From: Streptomyces sp. TG1A-60
GTDB taxonomy: Bacteria > Actinomycetota > Actinomycetes > Streptomycetales > Streptomycetaceae
Assembly: GCF_037201975.1 (NCBI RefSeq)
Contig: NZ_CP147520.1
Span: 3,348,001-3,412,000 of the forward strand
Direction: 5' to 3'
Length of the DNA stretch: 64,000 nucleotides
The translations under genes and the position numbers were made by a program. This document shows positions 3,480 to 20,874 of this stretch, one piece after another. Every line of letters starts with the position of its first letter. The stretch's first letter is position 1. The notes beneath the pieces are model-generated. The model saw only the letters and a program-made list of their open reading frames with translations. It was not told where the DNA came from and ran no database searches.

Positions 3480-4794
3480 GACTCTCTGGCCTCCGCTGCT
3501 GCCCGTGCCGCCGCCGGGAGAGCGTCGGCGATCCGCTGAACCGCCCGCTCGTCGTGCGCGGTCGACACGAACCACGACTCGAACGACGACGGCGGCAGAT
3601 AAACACCCTGCGACAGCATCGAGTGGAAGAAGGCGTTGAAGCGGTACGACTCCTGCGCCTTGGCCTCCTCGTAGTTCCGCACGGGCGTGTCCGTGAAGAA
3701 CACGGAGAACATGTTGGAGGCGCTCTGCAGCGTGTGCGCGACGCCTTCCTTGGTGAGCGCGTCCGTGACGAGCCCCTGGATCCGGAGGGACACGGCGGCG
3801 ACGACGTCGTACGCCGCGTGGTCCAGCAGCCGCAGCTGCGCCAGCCCGGCGGCGGTCGCGACCGGGTTCCCCGACAGCGTGCCGGCCTGGTACACGGGCC
3901 CGGCGGGCGCGAGGTACGCCATCACGTCGGCGCGCCCCCGAAGGCGGCGGCGGGGAAGCCGCCGCCCATGACCTTGCCGAAGGTCATGAGATCCGGGACG
4001 ACCCCGTCGATCCCGAACCAACCGGCCCTGCTGGTCCGGAACCCCGTCATCACCTCGTCGGAGACGAACAGCGCGCCGTTCTCGGCGCAGACGTCCTTGA
4101 GGCCCTGGTTGAAGCCCGGCAGCGGCGGTACGACGCCCATGTTGCCCGGGGATGCCTCGGTGATGACGCAGGCGATCTCGCCGGGGTGGGCGGCGAAGGC
4201 GGCGCGTACGGCGTCGAGGTCGTTGTAGGGCAGCACGATGGTGTCGCCGGCCTGGGCGCCGGTGACGCCGGGGGTGTCGGGCAGGGCGAAGGTGGCGACT
4301 CCCGACCCGGCGGCGGCGAGCAGCGAGTCGACGTGCCCGTGGTAACACCCGGCGAACTTCACCACCTTGGTGCGGCCGGTGAAGCCGCGGGCGAGCCGGA
4401 TCGCGGACATGGTGGCCTCGGTCCCGCTGGACACGAGCCGCACCTGCTCCAGGGGCCCGACCCGGTCCACCATCTCCTCGGCGAGCGCGACCTCGCCCTC
4501 ACCGGGGGTACCGAACGAGGTACCTCGCGACACGGCCTCCTGGACGGCGGCGATGACCTCGGGCCGGGAGTGCCCGAGGATCATGGGCCCCCAGGAGCAC
4601 ACAAGATCGACATACTCGCGACCGTCGGCGTCGGTCAGATAAGGACCGGTACCGGACACCATGAACCGGGGCGTACCACCCACGGCGCGGAAGGCGCGCA
4701 CGGGAGAGTTCACGCCGCCGGGCGTGACGGCCGCCGCGCGCTCGAAAAGAGTCTGCGAAACTGGGGCTTCGTACTGATAGCTCACACAGGCCAT
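3476..4794 (-). CDS. hemL: glutamate-1-semialdehyde 2,1-aminomutase, apparent one-base frameshift
   Basis: Converts glutamate-1-semialdehyde to 5-aminolevulinate in the C5 tetrapyrrole pathway, using PLP. The protein reads normally from ATG 4794 (GGAG 11 bases upstream) through the PLP-lysine region [14 protein letters not shown], then leaves frame at the C run 3935-3939. It continues correctly in another frame from [19 protein letters not shown] to the stop at 3476. Adding one G:C pair to the five-base run (six expected) restores a 439-residue protein of normal length. The other heme genes in this window look intact, and loss of hemL should cause a tetrapyrrole requirement, so a homopolymer error is the simplest reading. 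A real lesion cannot be excluded. Confidence 0.9.
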
Positions 4795-11851: not shown

Positions 11852-12454
11852 ATGCACGAACAGCACCACGAACACCCCATGCCCCAGGAACAGATGGCCA
11901 CCACCCCCGTCACACGCACAGCAAGTTGTCGGGTAAGGAGTCCTTACCCGACCCCCGCCCCAGAGGAGGCGGAGGCATCCGGCGCAGGGGCACAGGGGTC
12001 GACCGGCCCGGGGGAGCCGACCGGGACTGGGGGCAGCGAGCCGTCGTCAAGCGTGCCGCAGCAGCCGGCGCCGCGTCGCCGTCTGCGTGACAAGCAGCTG
12101 CGCGAGCACCGCGTCCACCCCCGCTACAACGACGACGAATTCGCCCTCGTCCAGAACGCCGCCGCCCTGAGCCGCATGAAGCCCGGCGGCTACGTCGCCG
12201 AGTGCGCGCTCGCCGCCGCCCGCGCCGACGACCCCACCGCAGCCGTCGCCGACTACCGCGCCATGGTCAAGGCGCTGTTGGCCGCCAACCGGCAGCTCGG
12301 CGGTATCGGCAACAACCTCAACCAGCTCACATGGCACCTCAACAGGGACGGCTCCTGGCCCCACCCCGACACCGTCCAACGGCTCCTGGAGCGCGTCGAG
12401 GCATCCATCGCCGAGGTGGACACCGCCGTTGCCCAGATCACCGAGGGGCGGTGA
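11852..12454 (+). CDS. MobC-like relaxosome accessory protein
   Basis: A 200-residue protein from ATG 11852 (GGAG seven bases upstream). The first 80 residues are low-complexity. The ordered part starts near LRDKQLREHRVHPRYNDDEF and carries the MobC-type C-terminal pattern ANRQLGGIGNNLNQLTWHLN. MobC proteins bind oriT and assist the relaxase, which here begins a few bases after the mobC stop. Because a 25-bp palindrome (11928-11952) lies in the low-complexity part, translation may start further downstream, for example near GTG 12052, leaving the palindrome outside the gene. Confidence 0.78.
   Translation: MHEQHHEHPMPQEQMATTPVTRTASCRVRSPYPTPAPEEAEASGAGAQGSTGPGEPTGTGGSEPSSSVPQQPAPRRRLRDKQLREHRVHPRYNDDEFALVQNAAALSRMKPGGYVAECALAAARADDPTAAVADYRAMVKALLAANRQLGGIGNNLNQLTWHLNRDGSWPHPDTVQRLLERVEASIAEVDTAVAQITEGR
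11928..11952. other. 25-bp palindrome, candidate oriT part 2
   Basis: Perfect arms of 12 bases, GTCGGGTAAGGA and TCCTTACCCGAC, around a single central G. It is the strongest dyad near the relaxase and less GC-rich than its surroundings. It falls in the poorly conserved beginning of the mobC ORF. A role as relaxase recognition/nic hairpin is inferred from position only. Confidence 0.45.
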
Positions 12455-12458
12455 GCCA

Positions 12459-14012
12459 TTGATACCGAAGATCATCCTCGGCAAGGGGCCCCACGCCACA
12501 CGCCGCACGATCGGCTACCTCTTCGGCAAAGGCCGGGCCAGCGAACACATCGACCCGCACCTGGTGGCCTCCTGGAACGACTTCGCCCCCGACCCTGGCC
12601 GCAGCCCCCACCGCGACCCCAAGGACGTGGAGGCCCAGCTCGCCGCACAACTCGACCAGCCCGTGAAGATGCTCGGCGACAAAGCACCCAAGCACACCGT
12701 GTGGCACTGCCCCGTCCGTGCCGCCCCCGAAGACCCGATCCTCACCGACACCCAGTGGGGGGATATCGCCCGCCGGATCGTGGCCGCCGCCGGCATCGCC
12801 CCCGAAGGCGACGAGGAAGCCTGCCGCTGGGTGGCCGTCCGCCACGCCGACGACCACATCCACATCGCCGCCACCCTCGTACGCCAGGATGGTCGCCGCC
12901 CCCAGCGCGACTTTGACCAGCGGGCCGTCCAGCGCGAAGCCCGCCAGATCGAAGTCGACTACGGACTGAGGCGACTGAGGCCGGGCGACGGCACCGCCGC
13001 CAAACGCCCCACCAGCAAGGAGCACTTCAAGGCCAAACGCCTGGGCCAGGAAGCGGCCACCCGCGAGATCCTGCGCCTGCGCGTCCGCCGCGCCGTCGCC
13101 GCCGCGGCCGACGAGGCCCAGCTCTTCGCCCTGTTGGAGGCCACCGGCGTGACCGTGCGCCTCAAGCACGGCCCGTCCGGCGACGCCCTCGGCTGCAACT
13201 TCGCCCTGTCCGGCGACACCAACGACAAGGGCGAGCCGGTCTTCTACTCCGGCTCCACCCTCGCCCCCGACCTCTCCCTCCCCAACATCCGCCAACGCCT
13301 CGTTACCACCAGCCCCGAACCTGTCACCGTCCGCCCGGGCAACCTGTGGCACCAGGCCACCGCCGCCACCGAACGCATCCCCTACCACCTCACCCACAGC
13401 GACGACCCCACGGCTCAAGGACAGCTGGTCGCGCTCGGCGCCGCACTGGACCTCCTGCCGGCCACCGGACCGGCGGTGCTCAAGGCCGAACTCGAACAGG
13501 CCGCGGCCGCCTTCGAGCGCGCCACCCGCTCCCGCATCGCCGCCGACCTCGACAGCACACGCGTCCTGCGGCGCAGCGTCCAGGCGATCTGGCGCGACCG
13601 CCCCCAGGACAGGGACGGGGCCGGATTCGCGATGCTTCTGGATGCCGCACTCACCGCGGTGGCGTTCGCGATTCACTGGCACCGCATCCGTCAGCACGCA
13701 CAGCAGGAGGCGGCAGCCGAGCAGGCCCTCCTCCACTTGCAGGTGGCGTACGCGCAGGTCGCCGAGCCGGTCCTGGTCGGCCTCGCCAGCCGGACGCCCA
13801 GCCCGCAGACCAAACGCCGCTTCGCCCACCACCTCCAGCAGGCGGTACCGGAACACTCCGAGCGCATCCTGGCCGACTCCGCCTGGGAAGCACTCGCCAC
13901 CGTGCTCGCCGAGGCCGAAGCAGCAGGACACAACTCAGCCACCGTCCTCGACCAGGCGCTCGGACAGCGCACCCTGGATGACGCCCACAGCCCCGCCCGC
14001 GCACTGACCTGA
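12459..14012 (+). CDS. relaxase/mobilization nuclease
   Basis: A 517-residue HUH relaxase that would nick oriT and lead the strand to a recipient cell. TTG 12459 gives the expected N-terminus IPKIILGKGPHATRRTIGYL, with a candidate catalytic Tyr in GYLFGKG (about residue 25). The metal-binding HUH motif is HADDHIHIAA (about 129-138), preceded by KHTVWHCPVRA. This order matches the VirD2/MobA-like Relaxase family. The C-terminal 300 residues are helical, Ala/Arg-rich and not recognised. It follows mobC by four bases, so the two are coupled. No transfer ATPase is nearby, so mobilization would need a helper system. Confidence 0.87.
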   Translation: MIPKIILGKGPHATRRTIGYLFGKGRASEHIDPHLVASWNDFAPDPGRSPHRDPKDVEAQLAAQLDQPVKMLGDKAPKHTVWHCPVRAAPEDPILTDTQWGDIARRIVAAAGIAPEGDEEACRWVAVRHADDHIHIAATLVRQDGRRPQRDFDQRAVQREARQIEVDYGLRRLRPGDGTAAKRPTSKEHFKAKRLGQEAATREILRLRVRRAVAAAADEAQLFALLEATGVTVRLKHGPSGDALGCNFALSGDTNDKGEPVFYSGSTLAPDLSLPNIRQRLVTTSPEPVTVRPGNLWHQATAATERIPYHLTHSDDPTAQGQLVALGAALDLLPATGPAVLKAELEQAAAAFERATRSRIAADLDSTRVLRRSVQAIWRDRPQDRDGAGFAMLLDAALTAVAFAIHWHRIRQHAQQEAAAEQALLHLQVAYAQVAEPVLVGLASRTPSPQTKRRFAHHLQQAVPEHSERILADSAWEALATVLAEAEAAGHNSATVLDQALGQRTLDDAHSPARALT

Positions 14013-14135
14013 CGCATCCGCCGCCTCGGCGAACGCCATCCGCCCAGTCCACGAGCCGAGGCAGCCCGTACTCCGCCCGTCCAGCCTGCGGCAGCGGCTC
14101 CTCCCTCACAGCCTCAGTCGGCACGGCGGCGCTGA

Positions 14136-14690
14136 TCACGGCCGCGCGGACGCCTTGGGAGTGAGCAGCTCCAGCGCTTCCTCCCAGCGGTAGCGGTCTG
14201 CCCCGCCGCCGGCCTTTGGCCTGTGCGGCTCGTACGAACCGATCAGGACGCCCATCTCGCGCAACCGCTCCAGACTCTGCCGGTACGCGGGATGGGCGGC
14301 CTGGGCTGAGTTCACGTACGGCAGGACGGCAGTGGGGATGCCCATGCCGTACGCCTCGCACAGGATGCCCAGGGCCAGAGTGTCGGATATCCCTGCCGCC
14401 CACTTATTGACGGTATTGAAGGTGGCCGGGGCCACCGCGATGGCGTCGGCGGGTGGCAGCGGGCGAGGATCGTCGGGTGAGCGCCAGGCCGATCGGATCG
14501 GGTAGCCGGTCTGGGCCTCGACCGCCTCCGTGTCGATGAAACCCAGCCCCTGCGGGGTGGCCACCACGCCGACGTCCCAGTTCGCCTCTTGAGCAGCCGT
14601 GATCAGCTTGCCGACGTCGCCGGCGACACCGGCCGCGCAGACGACGACGTACAGGAACGGCTTTTTGCCCGGCGCCTGCGGTTCGGTCAC
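14136..14690 (-). CDS. flavoprotein (PPC decarboxylase/EpiD-like family)
   Basis: A 184-residue protein of the FMN-binding flavoprotein family that includes phosphopantothenoylcysteine decarboxylase and the lantibiotic decarboxylase EpiD. It shows the Rossmann-like start VVVCAAGVAGDVGKLI (about 11-26) and the FMN motif APATFNTVNKWAAGISDTLA, corresponding to the family PASANT segment. Substrate is unknown. GTG 14690 overlaps the downstream stop of the WbqC-like gene (GTGA), so it ends a four-gene leftward operon. EpiD-type chemistry needs a C-terminal Cys on its peptide, which the nearby candidate peptide lacks, so a direct role there is doubtful. Confidence 0.8.
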   Translation of the reverse strand: MTEPQAPGKKPFLYVVVCAAGVAGDVGKLITAAQEANWDVGVVATPQGLGFIDTEAVEAQTGYPIRSAWRSPDDPRPLPPADAIAVAPATFNTVNKWAAGISDTLALGILCEAYGMGIPTAVLPYVNSAQAAHPAYRQSLERLREMGVLIGSYEPHRPKAGGGADRYRWEEALELLTPKASARP

Positions 14691-15412
14691 GTGAAGCCCC
14701 CAGAAGCAGTTGGTCTCGTTGGGCCGCCAGCTTGGCGGCCAGGACTTCCGGTCCGATCTGGCTCAGCGCCCACAGACTGCTGATCCCTCGGGACCACCGC
14801 CAGAGTGGGTCTTCCGTCTCCACAGGAGTGTGGAAAGCCAGCACCGGGATGCCGTGGGCATCGAACGGAGCCGGGTCGAGGTAGCGCCAGCCACCCGTGC
14901 CGCAGAGATAGTGGGTACTGCTCGTGGCCACGGCCAGTTCTGCGAGCCGTTCTGATCGGCCTTCCCGAGTCGGGATCGTGCTGCTGTCCAGTACTTCGCC
15001 GCTCCAGCCAAGTGCGGTGAGCAGCGTGATCGTCGACGCCCTGGCGATGCCGGAGACGCGGTCGGTGGTCTCGAACTGATCGAGAACCGCGTCCAGGACC
15101 CCACGCACCGCTGGCCAGTGGCGGCTGCGGCCGTAGTACTGGCGAATCAGCAGGCTGACGGTGCGGCGGGAGCGGCTGGGGTCGGCGAGCCGCGCCCGGC
15201 TGATCAGTGTCGTGCGCCCATCGGGCAGGTGCGTGGGGAGCGTGAGCCACTGCTGCCTGGCGGGGCTGTCCAGGGCCGCGAGCCGAGCCCGGTGCTGATA
15301 GTCGCGCCGGGCGAACTGGACGTCGTCGAGGACGATCCACCGGGCCGGCGGCGTACAGCTTCGCCAGAGTGGACAGCCGCGGGAACAGGTTCGGTTGGTG
15401 GATCGCGCACAC
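14687..15412 (-). CDS. WbqC-like family protein, two apparent frameshifts
   Basis: The N-terminus from GTG 15412, CAIHQPNLFPRLSTLAKL, is characteristic of the WbqC family, associated with polysaccharide and natural-product loci and of unclear biochemistry. At about 15342-15346 the frame changes; the continuation WIVLDDVQFARRDYQHRARL and the rest of the family (to QRDQLLLG) are in another frame. Near the C run 14697-14701 a return to the first frame would give a stop at 14687 overlapping the flavoprotein GTG, exactly as expected for an operon. One surplus base and one missing base explain everything. Either both are sequence errors or this is a pseudogene. Confidence 0.7.
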   Translation of the reverse strand: MCAIHQPNLFPRLSTLAKLYAAGPVDRPRRRPVRPARLSAPGSARGPGQPRQAAVAHAPHAPARWAHDTDQPGAARRPQPLPPHRQPADSPVLRPQPPLASGAWGPGRGSRSVRDHRPRLRHRQGVDDHAAHRTWLERRSTGQQHDPDSGRPIRTARRTGRGHEQYPLSLRHGWLALPRPGSVRCPRHPGAGFPHSCGDGRPTLAVVPRDQQSVGAEPDRTGSPGRQAGGPTRPTASGGFT

Positions 15413-15440
15413 CCCGCCCGGCGAACCAGCGTGGGACAGG

Positions 15441-16130
15441 TCAGGTGCCGATGAGGCGGCTGTCGAATCCGTCGCGCAGAAGGCGCTCGTAAGCGTCATA
15501 CACATCCCCCGGTACGTCCTGCTCGACGGCGAAGCCGAGCTTCGGGTACTCGATCACCCGTTGCAGGTCGCCGACGAGCATGTCGACGACCAGCTTCTCG
15601 TCGCCGATGGACTTGATGTAGTCGTCCAACTCCAGCGGCTCGGAAGCGCACACGACCTCAGCCTCGGGCCACAGCTTGCGGGAGGTCGCATACGAGCGGC
15701 GTTCCATGTACGGCTTGGAGATGAGCAGCAGCGACTCGACCGCGATGCCGGCCTCGGCCAGCATCTCGCGGGAGAAGGTGACGTTCTGGCCAGTGTTGGC
15801 CGCCTTGGGCTCGACCAGGATCGCCTCGTCCGGCACCCCGAGGCTCAGGGCGTGCTCGCGGTAATGGACGGCCTCACCGCGTGGGAAGCGGGCCCGGGTG
15901 GTGGGGCTGTTGCCCCCGCTGAACACCACGACCGGGAAGAGGCCGGCGCGGTAGAGGCCTGCGGCCGTGGTGGCCACCCCAAGGTCGTGGCTGCCCAGGC
16001 CGATCGCCGCCGAGCAGGGACGCTGCTCGTGGCCCATCTGGTGGTAGTTCCAGATCAGCGTCGCGTCGTGGAACTGCTCGTCGGTGATCTGGCGTTGCTC
16101 GTGCTCCGGCACTGGCACTCCCTGGCTCAT
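15441..16130 (-). CDS. YdcF family protein (DUF218)
   Basis: A 229-residue protein of the YdcF/DUF218 family, whose members bind nucleotides and lack a well-defined reaction. Family motifs visible are CSAAIGLGSHDLGVATTAAG, the GGN element in VVVFSGGNSPTTR and a downstream EPKAANTGQN block. No signal peptide or membrane segment, so the protein is cytosolic. ATG 16130 overlaps the stop of the XRE/TPR regulator gene as ATGA, so the two are coupled. In this setting it may modify a small molecule made by the divergent operon; that is inference. Confidence 0.8.
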   Translation of the reverse strand: MSQGVPVPEHEQRQITDEQFHDATLIWNYHQMGHEQRPCSAAIGLGSHDLGVATTAAGLYRAGLFPVVVFSGGNSPTTRARFPRGEAVHYREHALSLGVPDEAILVEPKAANTGQNVTFSREMLAEAGIAVESLLLISKPYMERRSYATSRKLWPEAEVVCASEPLELDDYIKSIGDEKLVVDMLVGDLQRVIEYPKLGFAVEQDVPGDVYDAYERLLRDGFDSRLIGT

Positions 16131-17170
16131 CCCTGCTGGCCCTTTCGGATGCCCTCGATACTGTGCAGCTGGTGGCTCAACCCGTACTGGCGGGCCACCT
16201 GTGCCGCCTGATCGAGGACGGACAGCCCATCATTCCGGGTCGCCGCATCCGACAGAAGGATGTGCCCGTATGCGGTGTCCAACCGCACCCGCTGCATCGG
16301 GGAGTCGACCGTGCCGGTGGTGCGCGCGATGTCGATGTAGTGCAGGGCCTGCTTCAGGTCGCCGACGCCTCGGTGGGCCAGGGCCAGCTTCTGGTGGGCA
16401 ACAGACCAGTCCTCCGGCTCGCCCAGGTCCTCGAAGGAGCGAGTGGCCTCCACCATGACGCCGGTGGCGTACCCGTTGTTGCCCTCCTTGCTCAGTGCCG
16501 TACCGACCCAGAGCCGGGCCCTGGCACGGTCGCGAGGGCTCAAGCGCTCGTCCGCTGCAAGGAGTTCGTACTGCCGGGCAGAGGATTCGAGCTGGCCGGA
16601 CATTTCCTGAACGACGGCGAGGGAGAGCTCGATCTGAGCCACTCGACGCGGGATATCGAGTTCGGTGAACATGCCGCGGGCGGTCATGTAGGAGTGCCGG
16701 GCGGAGAGCGGGCCGAGGATCGCGCCCTGGTCACGTTGGAGATCGCCGAGCAGCACGAGGGAACGGCCGTAGAGGTAAAGGCCCTTGTCATCCAGGTGAT
16801 GGGGGTCGTGCCGGGTCAGCCAGCGGTTCAACAGTGAGGTGGCGAAGGGGAAGTTCTGGCGGCTGACGCAGATCACAGCACGCTCGATGTCCTCGGTCCA
16901 GGTCTCGTAGTCCGCCGGCCGCGCGCTCTTCCTGCCAGGGAAGATCAGCACCTCGAACCTGGCCTGAGCAGCGGAGCCCGCGCGGGCCAGTGCCGTGTCG
17001 AGGATGGCCTGGGTATCCGGGCGGGGCTGGGTGGCGGTACCGAGGCTCTCCCACTTGGCGACCGTGCGCAGTGCGACACCGAGGTGCTCTGCGAATGCGC
17101 GCGTGCTCATACGCAGCGCGGCGCGCAGGGCGCTCGCCTCCCGGCCTGTCCATTGCTGCACACTGACCAC
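16127..17170 (-). CDS. XRE-family transcriptional regulator with TPR-like repeats
   Basis: A 347-residue regulator. The HTH is near the N-terminus (STRAFAEHLGVALRTVAKWE, about 20-39), followed by a helical region with TPR-like units (ALARAGSAAQARFEVL, LALAHRGVGDLKQALHYIDI). Such HTH-TPR proteins often respond to small peptides or autoinducers in Streptomyces and control neighbouring biosynthetic genes. GTG 17170 is chosen because GGAGG lies six bases upstream; the longer reading to 17233 has no ribosome site. It heads the leftward operon and is divergent from the radical SAM operon, so it probably controls both through the 17171-17289 spacer. Confidence 0.85.
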   Translation of the reverse strand: MVSVQQWTGREASALRAALRMSTRAFAEHLGVALRTVAKWESLGTATQPRPDTQAILDTALARAGSAAQARFEVLIFPGRKSARPADYETWTEDIERAVICVSRQNFPFATSLLNRWLTRHDPHHLDDKGLYLYGRSLVLLGDLQRDQGAILGPLSARHSYMTARGMFTELDIPRRVAQIELSLAVVQEMSGQLESSARQYELLAADERLSPRDRARARLWVGTALSKEGNNGYATGVMVEATRSFEDLGEPEDWSVAHQKLALAHRGVGDLKQALHYIDIARTTGTVDSPMQRVRLDTAYGHILLSDAATRNDGLSVLDQAAQVARQYGLSHQLHSIEGIRKGQQG

Positions 17171-17224
17171 GGATGACCTCCCTCCGTCATGTATGGAAGC
17201 ACTCTCGGTGACGACGTAGGGCGG

Positions 17225-17245
17225 GAAGTGCAACGGAAGTACAAC
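17225..17245. promoter_or_regulatory. GAAGTRCAAC direct repeats in the divergent promoter region
   Basis: GAAGTGCAAC at 17225-17234 and GAAGTACAAC at 17236-17245, one helical turn apart, in the 119-bp spacer between the XRE/TPR gene and the rightward operon. The position and spacing fit an operator for the regulator; binding itself is inferred. Confidence 0.4.
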
Positions 17246-18583: not shown

Positions 18584-19743
18584 ATGATCGAGACGAACAC
18601 CAGCGCCAAGAGGCCGAGGCGGAAAGCAGCTCCGCAGCTCGTGGCCAGCCCGTTTCTCGCCCAGTACCTCCTCGTCCAGCCCGGCCGGGCGGCCGGCGTG
18701 CGCATCCCGGAGGTCCGCTACGAGGAGCTGTGGGCCGCGGGCGCGGAAGGCCGATCCGTCCCGGACTGGCTGGCCGACGCGGCGCGGGAAGCGTGGGGGA
18801 CCGAGTTGCCCGCGTCGCCGGTCGGCGATGTCGTCCTCGTCCGCGAGCGGTCCCGGTACGGGTACGGCAAGGCATCATGGGAGATCAACCTCGGCTGTGA
18901 CTACGACTGCGAGTTCTGCTATCTCGGGGAGAAGCGGTTCGAGGGCCTGGACTGGGCCGGTAAGCAGGCGCTGCTGCAGACGCTGAGGGACGCCGGTGTC
19001 TTGTGGTTGCAGATCACCGGCGGTGAGGCGCTGATCGACCGCGAGTTCGGCGCGGCGTACGAGTACGCCCACCAGCTCGGGATGATGGTCCAGGTCTCGT
19101 CCAACGGCTCCTCGCTGCGGAAGCAGCCGATCCGGGACCTGTTCGCCCGCCACCGGCCGTACCGACTGACCCTGAGCGTCTACGGAGCCACCGCCGAGAC
19201 GTACGACAAGGTGACGCGGAACCGCGGGGCGTTCGGCCGGTTCCTGATGGGCCTGGACGCCGCCCGCGAGGACAGGTTGCCGGTCCGCCTGAACGTGATC
19301 GTCTCGGACGGCAACGCGCACGAGACAGACGCGATGGTGTGCCTCGCGAAGTCGTACGGCTTCCCGCATCAGGTCTTCACGAACATGTCGCCCACGATCG
19401 ACGGCGAGGCGAACCCCCTGGCGACGCAGGCACTGGGGCATCTCAAGGCCCGGAGCATCTTCACCGGCTGCAACGCCGGCCACACGTTCTTCCACGTCAA
19501 CCCGCACGGCATCGCGTCGATCTGCAAGGTCGGCCGCGACCCAAGTGTGAACCTCATCACTGAGGGCGTCGAAGCCCTCCCCGACTCGGCGCGGTCGCCG
19601 AGTCCCTACAGCTCCGCACCGGTGGATGCTCCAGCTGCACGAAGGTCGGCACGTGCCGCACGTGCCGACCGCTGGCCAGGCTCTACCAGGAGGCGGGGGA
19701 CCGACGAGAGCTCTACTGCCAACATGGAGGTTACGGATCATGA
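18584..19743 (+). CDS. radical SAM/SPASM protein, apparent frameshift near the 3' end
   Basis: A 386-residue radical SAM enzyme once the frame is repaired. The N-terminal 95 residues may recognise the substrate. The [4Fe-4S]/SAM motif is CDYDCEFC (Cys105, 109, 112), followed by LQITGGEAL and QVSSNGSSL. At the C run 19579-19582 the frame is lost; one extra C restores GGCSSCTKVGTCRTCRPL and LYCQHGG, a Cys-rich SPASM-like auxiliary cluster domain, ending at 19743. GTGGAGG lies just upstream of ATG 18584. The restored stop overlaps the start of a 70-codon peptide gene (ATGA), the classic layout for a peptide-modifying enzyme and its substrate. Confidence 0.82.
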
Positions 19744-19952
19744 CTCCGCCCACCGCACTCCTGACCCCGCCTCGCGAACCGGTCATGCTCACCATCGGCC
19801 GACGTCCGGCGGACAACCCGACCAGCGCCCTGCCGGTGCCGCTGATCGCCGCGTCGATCAAGGACGACGAGTTCCAGATCATCGCCGACCTGGACGAGGC
19901 TGCCGAGGGCGCCGAGTGCAGCTGCTCTGCTGGGGATGACCAGCCGTACTAG
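19740..19952 (+). CDS. candidate RiPP precursor peptide (70 residues)
   Basis: A small ORF overlapping the repaired stop of the radical SAM gene by ATGA. It begins MTPPTALLTPPREP, has an acidic leader-like middle DDEFQIIADLDEAAEG and ends AECSCSAGDDQPY, so its only two cysteines lie close to the C-terminus in a CSC motif. Size, acidic leader, Cys-bearing tail and coupling to a SPASM-type enzyme all fit a ribosomally made, modified peptide. The leader loosely recalls FxLD-type leaders, but no known family was matched. A perfect hairpin terminator follows at 20001-20033. Confidence 0.6.
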   Translation: MTPPTALLTPPREPVMLTIGRRPADNPTSALPVPLIAASIKDDEFQIIADLDEAAEGAECSCSAGDDQPY

Positions 19953-20000
19953 ATCCATCACGGGCGGCGCCCGTGCCGCCCGCTCGTTCCACCCCCTCAG

Positions 20001-20033
20001 TGCCGCCCCGGCCTTACCCTGGCCGGGGCGGCA
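20001..20033 (+). terminator. perfect 13-bp hairpin after the peptide gene
   Basis: TGCCGCCCCGGCC (20001-20013), a 7-nt loop, then the exact complement at 20021-20033, followed by TTCCCC. It separates the peptide gene from the phosphotransferase and should stop or attenuate transcription there, which could keep peptide mRNA in excess over downstream message. Confidence 0.65.
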
Positions 20034-20067
20034 TTCCCCGTACCCGAGCACCCTTGAGGAACCGCGC

Positions 20068-20874
20068 GTGTCCATGTCCCGCATCCCCTTCGAACAGCTA
20101 CCCGCCGACGTCCGCCGAGCCATCGCCGACAAGAGCGGCGCCGTCCATCAGGCAGCCACCGCGCCGGCCGGCATGAACTCCGGCGTCGCCTCCGTCCTAG
20201 AGACCGAAAGCGGCAGGGTCTTCGTGAAGGGCATCCCGACCGACCACCCCCAGGTCGGTGCGCAGCGCCGCGAGGCGGCGATTTCCCCGCATCTTCCGGC
20301 GTCCTGCCCACGCCTGTACTGGCATCTGGAGCTCGATGGCTGGAGCCTTCTTGGCTACGAGGTGGTCGACGGCCGCCACGCCGACTACGCGCCCGGCTCA
20401 CCCGACCTGCCGCTCGTGGAAGCCGCCCTCACCGAACTACAAGCCGTCACGGCCCCGGCCGACATCGAAATCAAGGACGCTGTCGACCGGTGGGCGGACT
20501 ACGCCCCGCCGGGGACGTTGCAGTACTTCAGCGGTGACATCCTCCTGCACACCGACTTCGCCAGGGATAACGTACTGATCGTCGGCAAACAGGCCCGGCT
20601 CGTCGATTGGGCGTGGCCGACGCGAGGTGCAGCATGGATCGACCCAGGCGCCCTGACACTGAGACTCATGGACTCCGGCCACCCGGTGGCGGAGGCGGTC
20701 GCCTTCGCGGGCCGCTTCCCGTCATGGCGGGACGCCGAACCGGAAGCCCTCGCGGCGTTCGGCGCGGCCACCGCGGCACTGTGGCAAGAGATCGCCGAGG
20801 AAGACGAGATCCCGTGGAAGCGGCGGATGGCAGAGCGGGCGGCGACACTCGCGTATGTCCTTGCCAAGGGGTAG
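20068..20874 (+). CDS. aminoglycoside phosphotransferase-family kinase
   Basis: A 268-residue small-molecule kinase fold. The catalytic loop is HTDFARDNVLIV (about 160-171), with the HxDxxxxN pattern, and VDWAWPTRG stands for the metal-binding D. An N-lobe Lys is in GRVFVKGIP. GTG 20068 is chosen because GAGGA lies seven bases upstream; ATG 20074 is the alternative. Substrate unknown. Its place at the end of the radical SAM operon suggests product modification or self-resistance, but members of this family often have unrelated roles. Confidence 0.78.
   Translation: MSMSRIPFEQLPADVRRAIADKSGAVHQAATAPAGMNSGVASVLETESGRVFVKGIPTDHPQVGAQRREAAISPHLPASCPRLYWHLELDGWSLLGYEVVDGRHADYAPGSPDLPLVEAALTELQAVTAPADIEIKDAVDRWADYAPPGTLQYFSGDILLHTDFARDNVLIVGKQARLVDWAWPTRGAAWIDPGALTLRLMDSGHPVAEAVAFAGRFPSWRDAEPEALAAFGAATAALWQEIAEEDEIPWKRRMAERAATLAYVLAKG

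Follow-up and report, generated by a model that had tools for sequence, protein, structure and literature searches.

The 64,000-nucleotide stretch of DNA analysed here (the window) carries a gene for a radical SAM/SPASM enzyme that overlaps the gene for a 70-residue peptide and is followed by the gene for an APH-fold kinase. This arrangement, nearly always with the kinase or a GNAT acetyltransferase in third place, recurs widely in actinobacteria, and also in some phages and plasmids of these bacteria. It is best explained as a RiPP cassette (we put the probability at about 0.6), in which the leader of the peptide would be bound by an N-terminal RRE of the enzyme, the tail cross-linked by the same enzyme, and the tail tyrosine modified by the kinase. 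That the enzyme and the peptide form a RiPP pair is highly probable. The relevant features of the window are located as follows.

12429-14690, upstream of the cassette: relaxase-like gene (recognised by eye) and flavoprotein gene (PF02441)
about 14690-15505, minus strand: WbqC-like gene, broken
16127-17233, minus strand: divergent gene for an HTH/TPR-type regulator, a neighbour in part of the family
18584-19743, plus strand: radical SAM/SPASM maturase gene, ATG at 18584, frame broken near 19.58 kb
18638-18841, plus strand: RRE-like domain predicted at the N-terminus (AlphaFold model of P0003, a homologue with 95% identity; residues 19-86)
18896-18919, plus strand: CX3CX2C radical SAM cluster motif (CDYDCEFC), invariant across the homologue alignment
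19469-19525, plus strand: SPASM cysteines 1 and 2 (C-x12-G-x4-C), invariant alignment columns C296 and C314
19627-19740, plus strand: last five SPASM cysteines (CX2CX5CX2C ... C), invariant alignment columns C349, C352, C358, C361 and C379
19726-19730, plus strand: GGAGG, likely ribosome-binding site of the peptide gene, within the 3' end of the enzyme gene
19740-19952, plus strand: gene for the 70-aa precursor, start codon at 19740, stop codon at 19950-19952
19917-19949, plus strand: conserved tail CSCSAGDDQPY, proposed core
19999-20035, plus strand: 15-bp hairpin between the peptide and kinase genes, proposed attenuator
20074-20874, plus strand: APH-fold kinase gene, third gene of the cassette

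An earlier note on this DNA had described a repaired radical SAM gene that ends on an ATGA overlap with a 70-codon ORF, the product of which has its only two cysteines in a short tail. Both the overlap and the ORF are present, ATGA at 19740-19743 being at once the end of the enzyme gene and the start of the peptide gene, with the GGAGG 9 bases 5' of the peptide ATG; the translation, MTPPTALLTPPREPVMLTIGRRPADNPTSALPVPLIAASIKDDEFQIIADLDEAAEGAECSCSAGDDQPY (70 residues), has its sole two cysteines in the tail ECSCSAGDDQPY. The word repaired was apt as well: the printed frame from 18584 never reaches the SPASM end and continues as a wrong-frame run, with its first stop after 451 codons, and the conserved C-terminal piece of the enzyme stands in another frame, ending at 19743. 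Compared with all four nearest relatives, the window has a single-base length difference close to 19.58 kb and a second one at about 15342 (about 15.34 kb), which breaks the WbqC-like gene. Two frame breaks so close together (about 4 kb) may reflect sequencing error, or else decay, and since the enzyme gene of the window is either broken or mis-sequenced, it may encode no active enzyme. Intact copies occur in other loci. In Streptomyces spinoverrucosus (L052) the enzyme gene has its own, different break and the peptide is intact. The earlier note did not mention the third gene, the strong conservation of the tail past the cysteines, or the presence of the cassette on phages and plasmids.

The pair was followed through three sets of loci. 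Among 80 named loci, the best 80 of 226 relatives from a single collection of genomes, the peptide gene lies directly 3' of the enzyme gene in all 80; 74 of these were matched by script and the six unmatched ones were read by eye, and in L034 and L055 the script had taken an internal start. The peptide is also present in 30 of 30 loci from a separate whole-genome search, which include the window and share some genomes with the named set, and in all 21 phage, plasmid and viral-contig loci examined, four of which (L127, L128, L129 and L133) have one identical peptide. Left out of the 21 were L134, a weak viral match with 34% identity, and two redundant records, a near-duplicate from a plasmid (H8) and a duplicate from a phage. 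A phylum-wide profile search found matches at E ≤ 1e-60 in at least 6 of 396 genomes, all in the genus of the window, a lower bound because just five candidates were scored per genome. Within that genus, the best match reached this threshold in 39 of 199 genomes, and 30 of the matches were taken as loci.

The 70-codon gene is under purifying selection. For 17 gap-free relatives, the pN/pS ratio of the peptide ORF was 0.40 over all codons, as against 1.10 and 2.27 in the two wrong frames, a clear synonymous excess. It was 0.50 for codons 1-40, 0.27 for codons 41-70 and 0.10 for the last 14 codons (57-70), where variable columns at codon positions 1, 2 and 3 numbered 1, 1 and 9 of 14. An earlier median of 0.545 had mixed two subfamilies and indels, and the gap-free sequences were used in its place. 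With the window peptide as query, 97 database proteins were listed at E ≤ 1, and the tail motif occurs in 94. A profile of 30 family peptides matched 556 database clusters at E ≤ 0.01; the motif is found in 117 of the 120 profile matches listed, and three are without it. Taken together, the database matches with the tail motif, the codon selection and the recurrence in every locus examined place the pair beyond chance. The conserved co-occurrence of the enzyme with a Cys-tailed peptide, which the earlier note had named as a sign in favour of its reading, was found, and no homologue without the small ORF was seen among those examined (80/80 and 30/30).

Many of the listed relatives of the peptide are unnamed, and those with a name are almost always called 'hypothetical' or 'uncharacterized protein'; of the other names, P0127 carries the UniRef name 'ATP-grasp-modified RiPP' and P0202 'DUF6087 family protein'. 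The earlier statement that the peptide belongs to no known precursor family holds for NCBIfam, Pfam and PHROGs, in none of which the window peptide had a match. Four family peptides had no match in NCBIfam even at E 10, and a scan of 30 members against the same library gave weak matches to five models, one member each, the best being an antiporter subunit (E 0.0047). A phazolicin family TOMM bacteriocin model matched by a single member (E 0.0062) was taken as chance, like the other four.

Family peptides range from 38 to 76 aa, with leaders that vary in length and sequence. Close to the start of most leaders lies a V-x-V-x-I-like stretch, and ahead of the tail one that is hydrophobic and acidic. 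The typical tail reads CxCxxxDD[N/Q]P[Y/H/F], and a one-Cys branch has GCxDDNPY; of the 80 tails in the named set, 70 contain two cysteines and 10 contain one, so that every tail has at least one. The two-Cys consensus (n = 70) is C, S (64), C, a variable residue, A (64), G (55), D (67, with E in 3), D (66), Q (40) or N (29), P (69) and a last aromatic position occupied by Y (51), H (16) or F (3). The ten tails of the one-Cys branch all have one further residue after GC[GSN]DDNPY and end in NPYN, NPYR or NPYQ, and the aromatic residue is the exact C-terminus in 69 of the 80 tails. The most conserved portion, DD[N/Q]P[Y/H/F], lies past the cysteines. That the core hardly varies while the leaders differ greatly suggests a single conserved product; more variable cores are believed to be usual among RiPPs.

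Most of the listed enzyme homologues are about 366-388 aa long. Across 60 of them, C105, C109 and C112 of the CX3CX2C motif, which is also present in the window, and all seven SPASM cysteines are invariant; in the window, the last five SPASM cysteines are out of frame with the first part of the gene. Pfam PF04055 is above its cut-off for homologues P0003 and P0087. The mycofactocin maturase is the second-best NCBIfam match of P0003, and membership in that family was rejected, TIGR03962 scoring 60.7 bits against a cut-off of 265. In the predicted structure, three strands and three helices with a pLDDT of at least 90 from residue 21 on form an RRE-like fold at the N-terminus, and SkfB and SuiB align with the model end to end, starting at residue 17-18, with an identity of 11-16%. 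The SPASM end of the model is partly poor, with block means of 35-51 (residues 341-386) and 39-48 (residues 271-300).

The third gene encodes an APH-fold kinase in 58 of the 80 named loci and a GNAT acetyltransferase in 23, the two replacing each other at the same position. The kinase was assigned to the APH fold by its model and a fold match; in 25 members K53, H160, N167 and D179 are invariant and D162 nearly so. The kinase of L093 has Glu at the position of the catalytic Asp. The nature of the third gene co-varies with the last aromatic residue of the tail, which is Tyr in all 58 named kinase loci; in the 21 loci with GNAT only, it is His in 16, Phe in 3 and Tyr in 2, both from Glycomyces, and a locus with neither gene (L096) has Tyr. 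The mobile loci, which were examined later, agree: Tyr is found in 12 of 12 kinase loci, and His or Phe in 8 of 8 GNAT loci, four of which have the identical peptide, while the L138 plasmid, with neither partner gene, has Phe. Combined, Tyr stands in 70 of 70 kinase loci, and His or Phe in 28 of 31 loci without the kinase. L096 is from Rhizohabitans and has GNAT-like and kinase-like ORFs, recognised by eye, nearby on the opposite strand. In L138 (plasmid CP108533.1), a 170-residue protein without a Pfam match is encoded at the kinase/GNAT position (3837-4349) and may represent a third type of partner.

From this distribution we infer that the kinase phosphorylates the last tyrosine. Eight of the 58 kinase-linked cores have neither Ser nor Thr, which leaves Tyr as the sole hydroxyl common to all of them, and we give the tail Tyr about an even chance of being the kinase target. 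The co-variation can be traced to few events among related sequences, and it is therefore suggestive and no proof. On a quick tree of 97 rows, from which L052 and three duplicate viral rows were left out, both kinase presence and Tyr change four times. Loci without the kinase fall on this tree into a His/Phe clade of 21 rows, a Phe/Tyr clade of four rows and the single rows L138 (Phe), L062 (Phe) and L096 (Tyr), of which L138 is sister to L120, a locus with kinase and Tyr (support 0.99). A slower tree of 79 rows gives three changes for the kinase-only label and two for the GNAT-only label.

A plausible course of events can be proposed. The N-terminal RRE would bind the leader, most likely through the hydrophobic-acidic strand ...DEFQIIADLDE..., after which the radical SAM/SPASM enzyme would cross-link the short tail CSCSAGDDQPY. 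The likeliest product would be a thioether from the last Cys to a following Asp, in the Cys-x3-Asp spacing of ranthipeptides; Cys-x3-Asp/Glu is present in all 70 two-Cys tails of the named set. Against it stand the ten one-Cys tails, which have C-x-D, and several departing tails from outside this set: CSCTASSDQVYNN in L132 with C-x4-D, GCGEDNPYN in L119 and GCGEDNPF in L138 with C-G-E, and GCGNDNPY in L120 and L021 with C-G-N-D. SPASM enzymes also form bonds other than thioethers, and we hold the thioether to be the bond formed with somewhat less than even confidence. The APH-fold kinase would then act on the hydroxyl of the tail Tyr; in several branches a GNAT enzyme takes its place and the requirement for Tyr is gone. 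Either enzyme may finish the product or neutralise it.

The latter role leads to the alternative that survives best, although we regard it as rather unlikely: the kinase or GNAT would confer immunity by inactivating a toxic peptide, in the manner of an antibiotic self-resistance gene or antitoxin, and the trio would serve phages and plasmids as an addiction, superinfection or competition module. The swap of kinase and GNAT at one position would suit it, phosphorylation and acetylation being classical detoxifying changes, and so would the top fold match of the kinase, ComG, with the amicoumacin kinase AmiN close. The compact trio is also carried by mobile elements. In Streptomyces phage Success (L118, NC_073472.1) enzyme, peptide and kinase are gp03, gp02 and gp01, in that order, annotated as oxidoreductase, hypothetical protein and kinase; the peptide there has 38 residues and ends in PGCGDDNPYN, and a gene for an HTH-DUF5753 protein lies near the trio. 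The same trio is found on plasmid phiDSM40276, the name of which suggests a phage-plasmid, and on other plasmids, and the enzyme and peptide with a kinase or GNAT occur in 13 IMG/VR contigs, in at least one of which (L121) the cassette adjoins phage-tail-like genes, as judged by eye. The 'plasmid' record of a Nonomuraea locus (L137) is 11.9 Mb long and is thus probably a chromosome. Against an immunity function, a PADLOC search matched neither peptide nor kinase nor GNAT, the enzyme alone matching prokaryotic viperins (pVip, 51.5 bits) at the level of the superfamily. Moreover, an APH fold alone is no proof of resistance, as APH-like kinases such as CaoK are also biosynthetic according to the available part of PMC9486802.

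Between the peptide and the third gene, 51 of the 74 loci matched by script have a stem of at least 12 bp, compared with a mean of 0.3 in dinucleotide shuffles; the hairpin sequences differ between lineages, and 18 of the 74 loci have no stem of at least 8 bp. By attenuation, such a hairpin might keep kinase output below that of the peptide. Genes for the flavoprotein, the WbqC-like protein, DUF218 and the relaxase-like protein (by eye) have partial or full matches in 6, 14, 15 and 14 of the 80 loci, respectively, and were on these counts ruled out as core parts; the relaxase-like and flavoprotein genes beside the cassette suggest a shared mobile or conserved island. The HTH/TPR-type regulator is found in 16 of 80 loci, including one partial match, with HTH matches under cut-off. 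The sole transporter recognised by eye in the 32 recurrent neighbour clusters is MFS-like and present in 4 of 80 loci, and no peptidase was recognised there. This lack of a widely shared exporter or peptidase makes possible either an intracellular role or the use of general proteases and exporters. Single loci with a transporter or peptidase nearby are L119 and L136, and phage Success has a metalloprotease. The cassette is preceded on plasmids L136 and L138 by genes annotated 'DUF6415 family natural product biosynthesis protein'.

A cofactor-like or signal-like product, made by the same cassette through a C-C bond or mycofactocin-like processing of the C-terminal aromatic residue, is unlikely in our estimation. 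The near-invariant product end over very different leaders is what a conserved cofactor would show, and the exact aromatic C-terminus of most tails, the second-best match to the mycofactocin maturase and the scarcity of exporter and peptidase clusters (none recognised by eye in more than 4 of 80 loci) point the same way; the low score of the mycofactocin model, the residues after Tyr in the one-Cys branch and the cysteine in 80 of 80 tails speak against it. Phosphorylation of core Ser/Thr for later elimination, as in class V lanthipeptides, is very improbable and was set aside, given the eight kinase-linked cores without Ser or Thr and a Tyr co-variation that it leaves unexplained. In addition, cacaoidin dehydration uses a HopA1-like lyase (PMC9486802, available part), and no lyase was recognised by eye among the 32 recurrent neighbour clusters. 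Least probable of all is that the small protein stays with the enzyme as a stable accessory subunit or as a metal-binding partner, a role in keeping with its very constant Cys and Asp tail and with the adjoining enzyme in all loci examined, since the RRE-like domain, the build of the peptides (38-76 aa), with a leader that varies and a tail that does not, and the hairpin that follows their gene all fit a precursor.

Returning to the RiPP cassette, its widest form, in which a mobile three-gene family of actinobacteria and phages ties Cys to the DD[N/Q]P[Y/H/F] tail and an exchangeable kinase or GNAT switches or neutralises the product, is in our view doubtful as a whole. The product may act inside the producing cell, e.g. 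as a phage-borne addiction, superinfection or competition module, and with a radical SAM RiPP cassette encoded by a phage, one may ask how the product serves the phage or its lysogen. The link between the kinase/GNAT swap and the last aromatic residue provides a direct, testable prediction, and the 556 database clusters are without a curated family in the libraries searched.

RiPPs made by RRE-containing radical SAM/SPASM enzymes are already a known kind. What appears to be new here is the precursor family, the gene trio with an exchangeable tailoring enzyme and its carriage by a phage; a fitting named family was not found in NCBIfam, Pfam or PHROGs. In open-licence papers the tail 'GDDQPY' was not found and 'DDNPY' appeared only in an unrelated context, a search by which a description in a subscription journal could be missed, and the available part of the decRiPPter survey (PMC7794033) gives no sign of the peptide family.

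Among the systems described so far, ranthipeptides (PapA/PapB, freyrasin) are alike in having a radical SAM maturase; their Cys-x3-Asp/Glu core spacing recurs in the two-Cys tails of the named set, the one-Cys tails having C-x-D, and PapB accepts Cys-Xn-Asp and tolerates other spacings, as reported in the accessible part of PMC9413430. By description they are set apart by their six motifs, whereas the present family has one or two cysteines at the C-terminus, the DD[N/Q]P[Y/H/F] end and a kinase or GNAT. The maturases SkfB and SuiB resemble the enzyme in their predicted end-to-end alignment and N-terminal RRE-like domain, but with low sequence identity. To our knowledge, their precursors have no tail of the present type. 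Mycofactocin has a small precursor with a conserved C-terminal aromatic residue, and its maturation takes place at a C-terminal Val-Tyr. The MftC model is the second-best NCBIfam match, and the score far below cut-off, the other tail and the residues that may follow Tyr here distinguish the two. Concerning the third gene, the top fold match of the kinase, ComG, is the self-resistance kinase that inactivates corramycin (PMC10996006, available part). The class V lanthipeptide kinases CaoK and LxmK are likewise APH-like kinases in RiPP clusters, CaoK with a biosynthetic role (PMC9486802, available part), but in the present cassettes no lyase was recognised by eye among the recurrent neighbours, Ser and Thr are not universal in the kinase-linked cores, and Tyr is.
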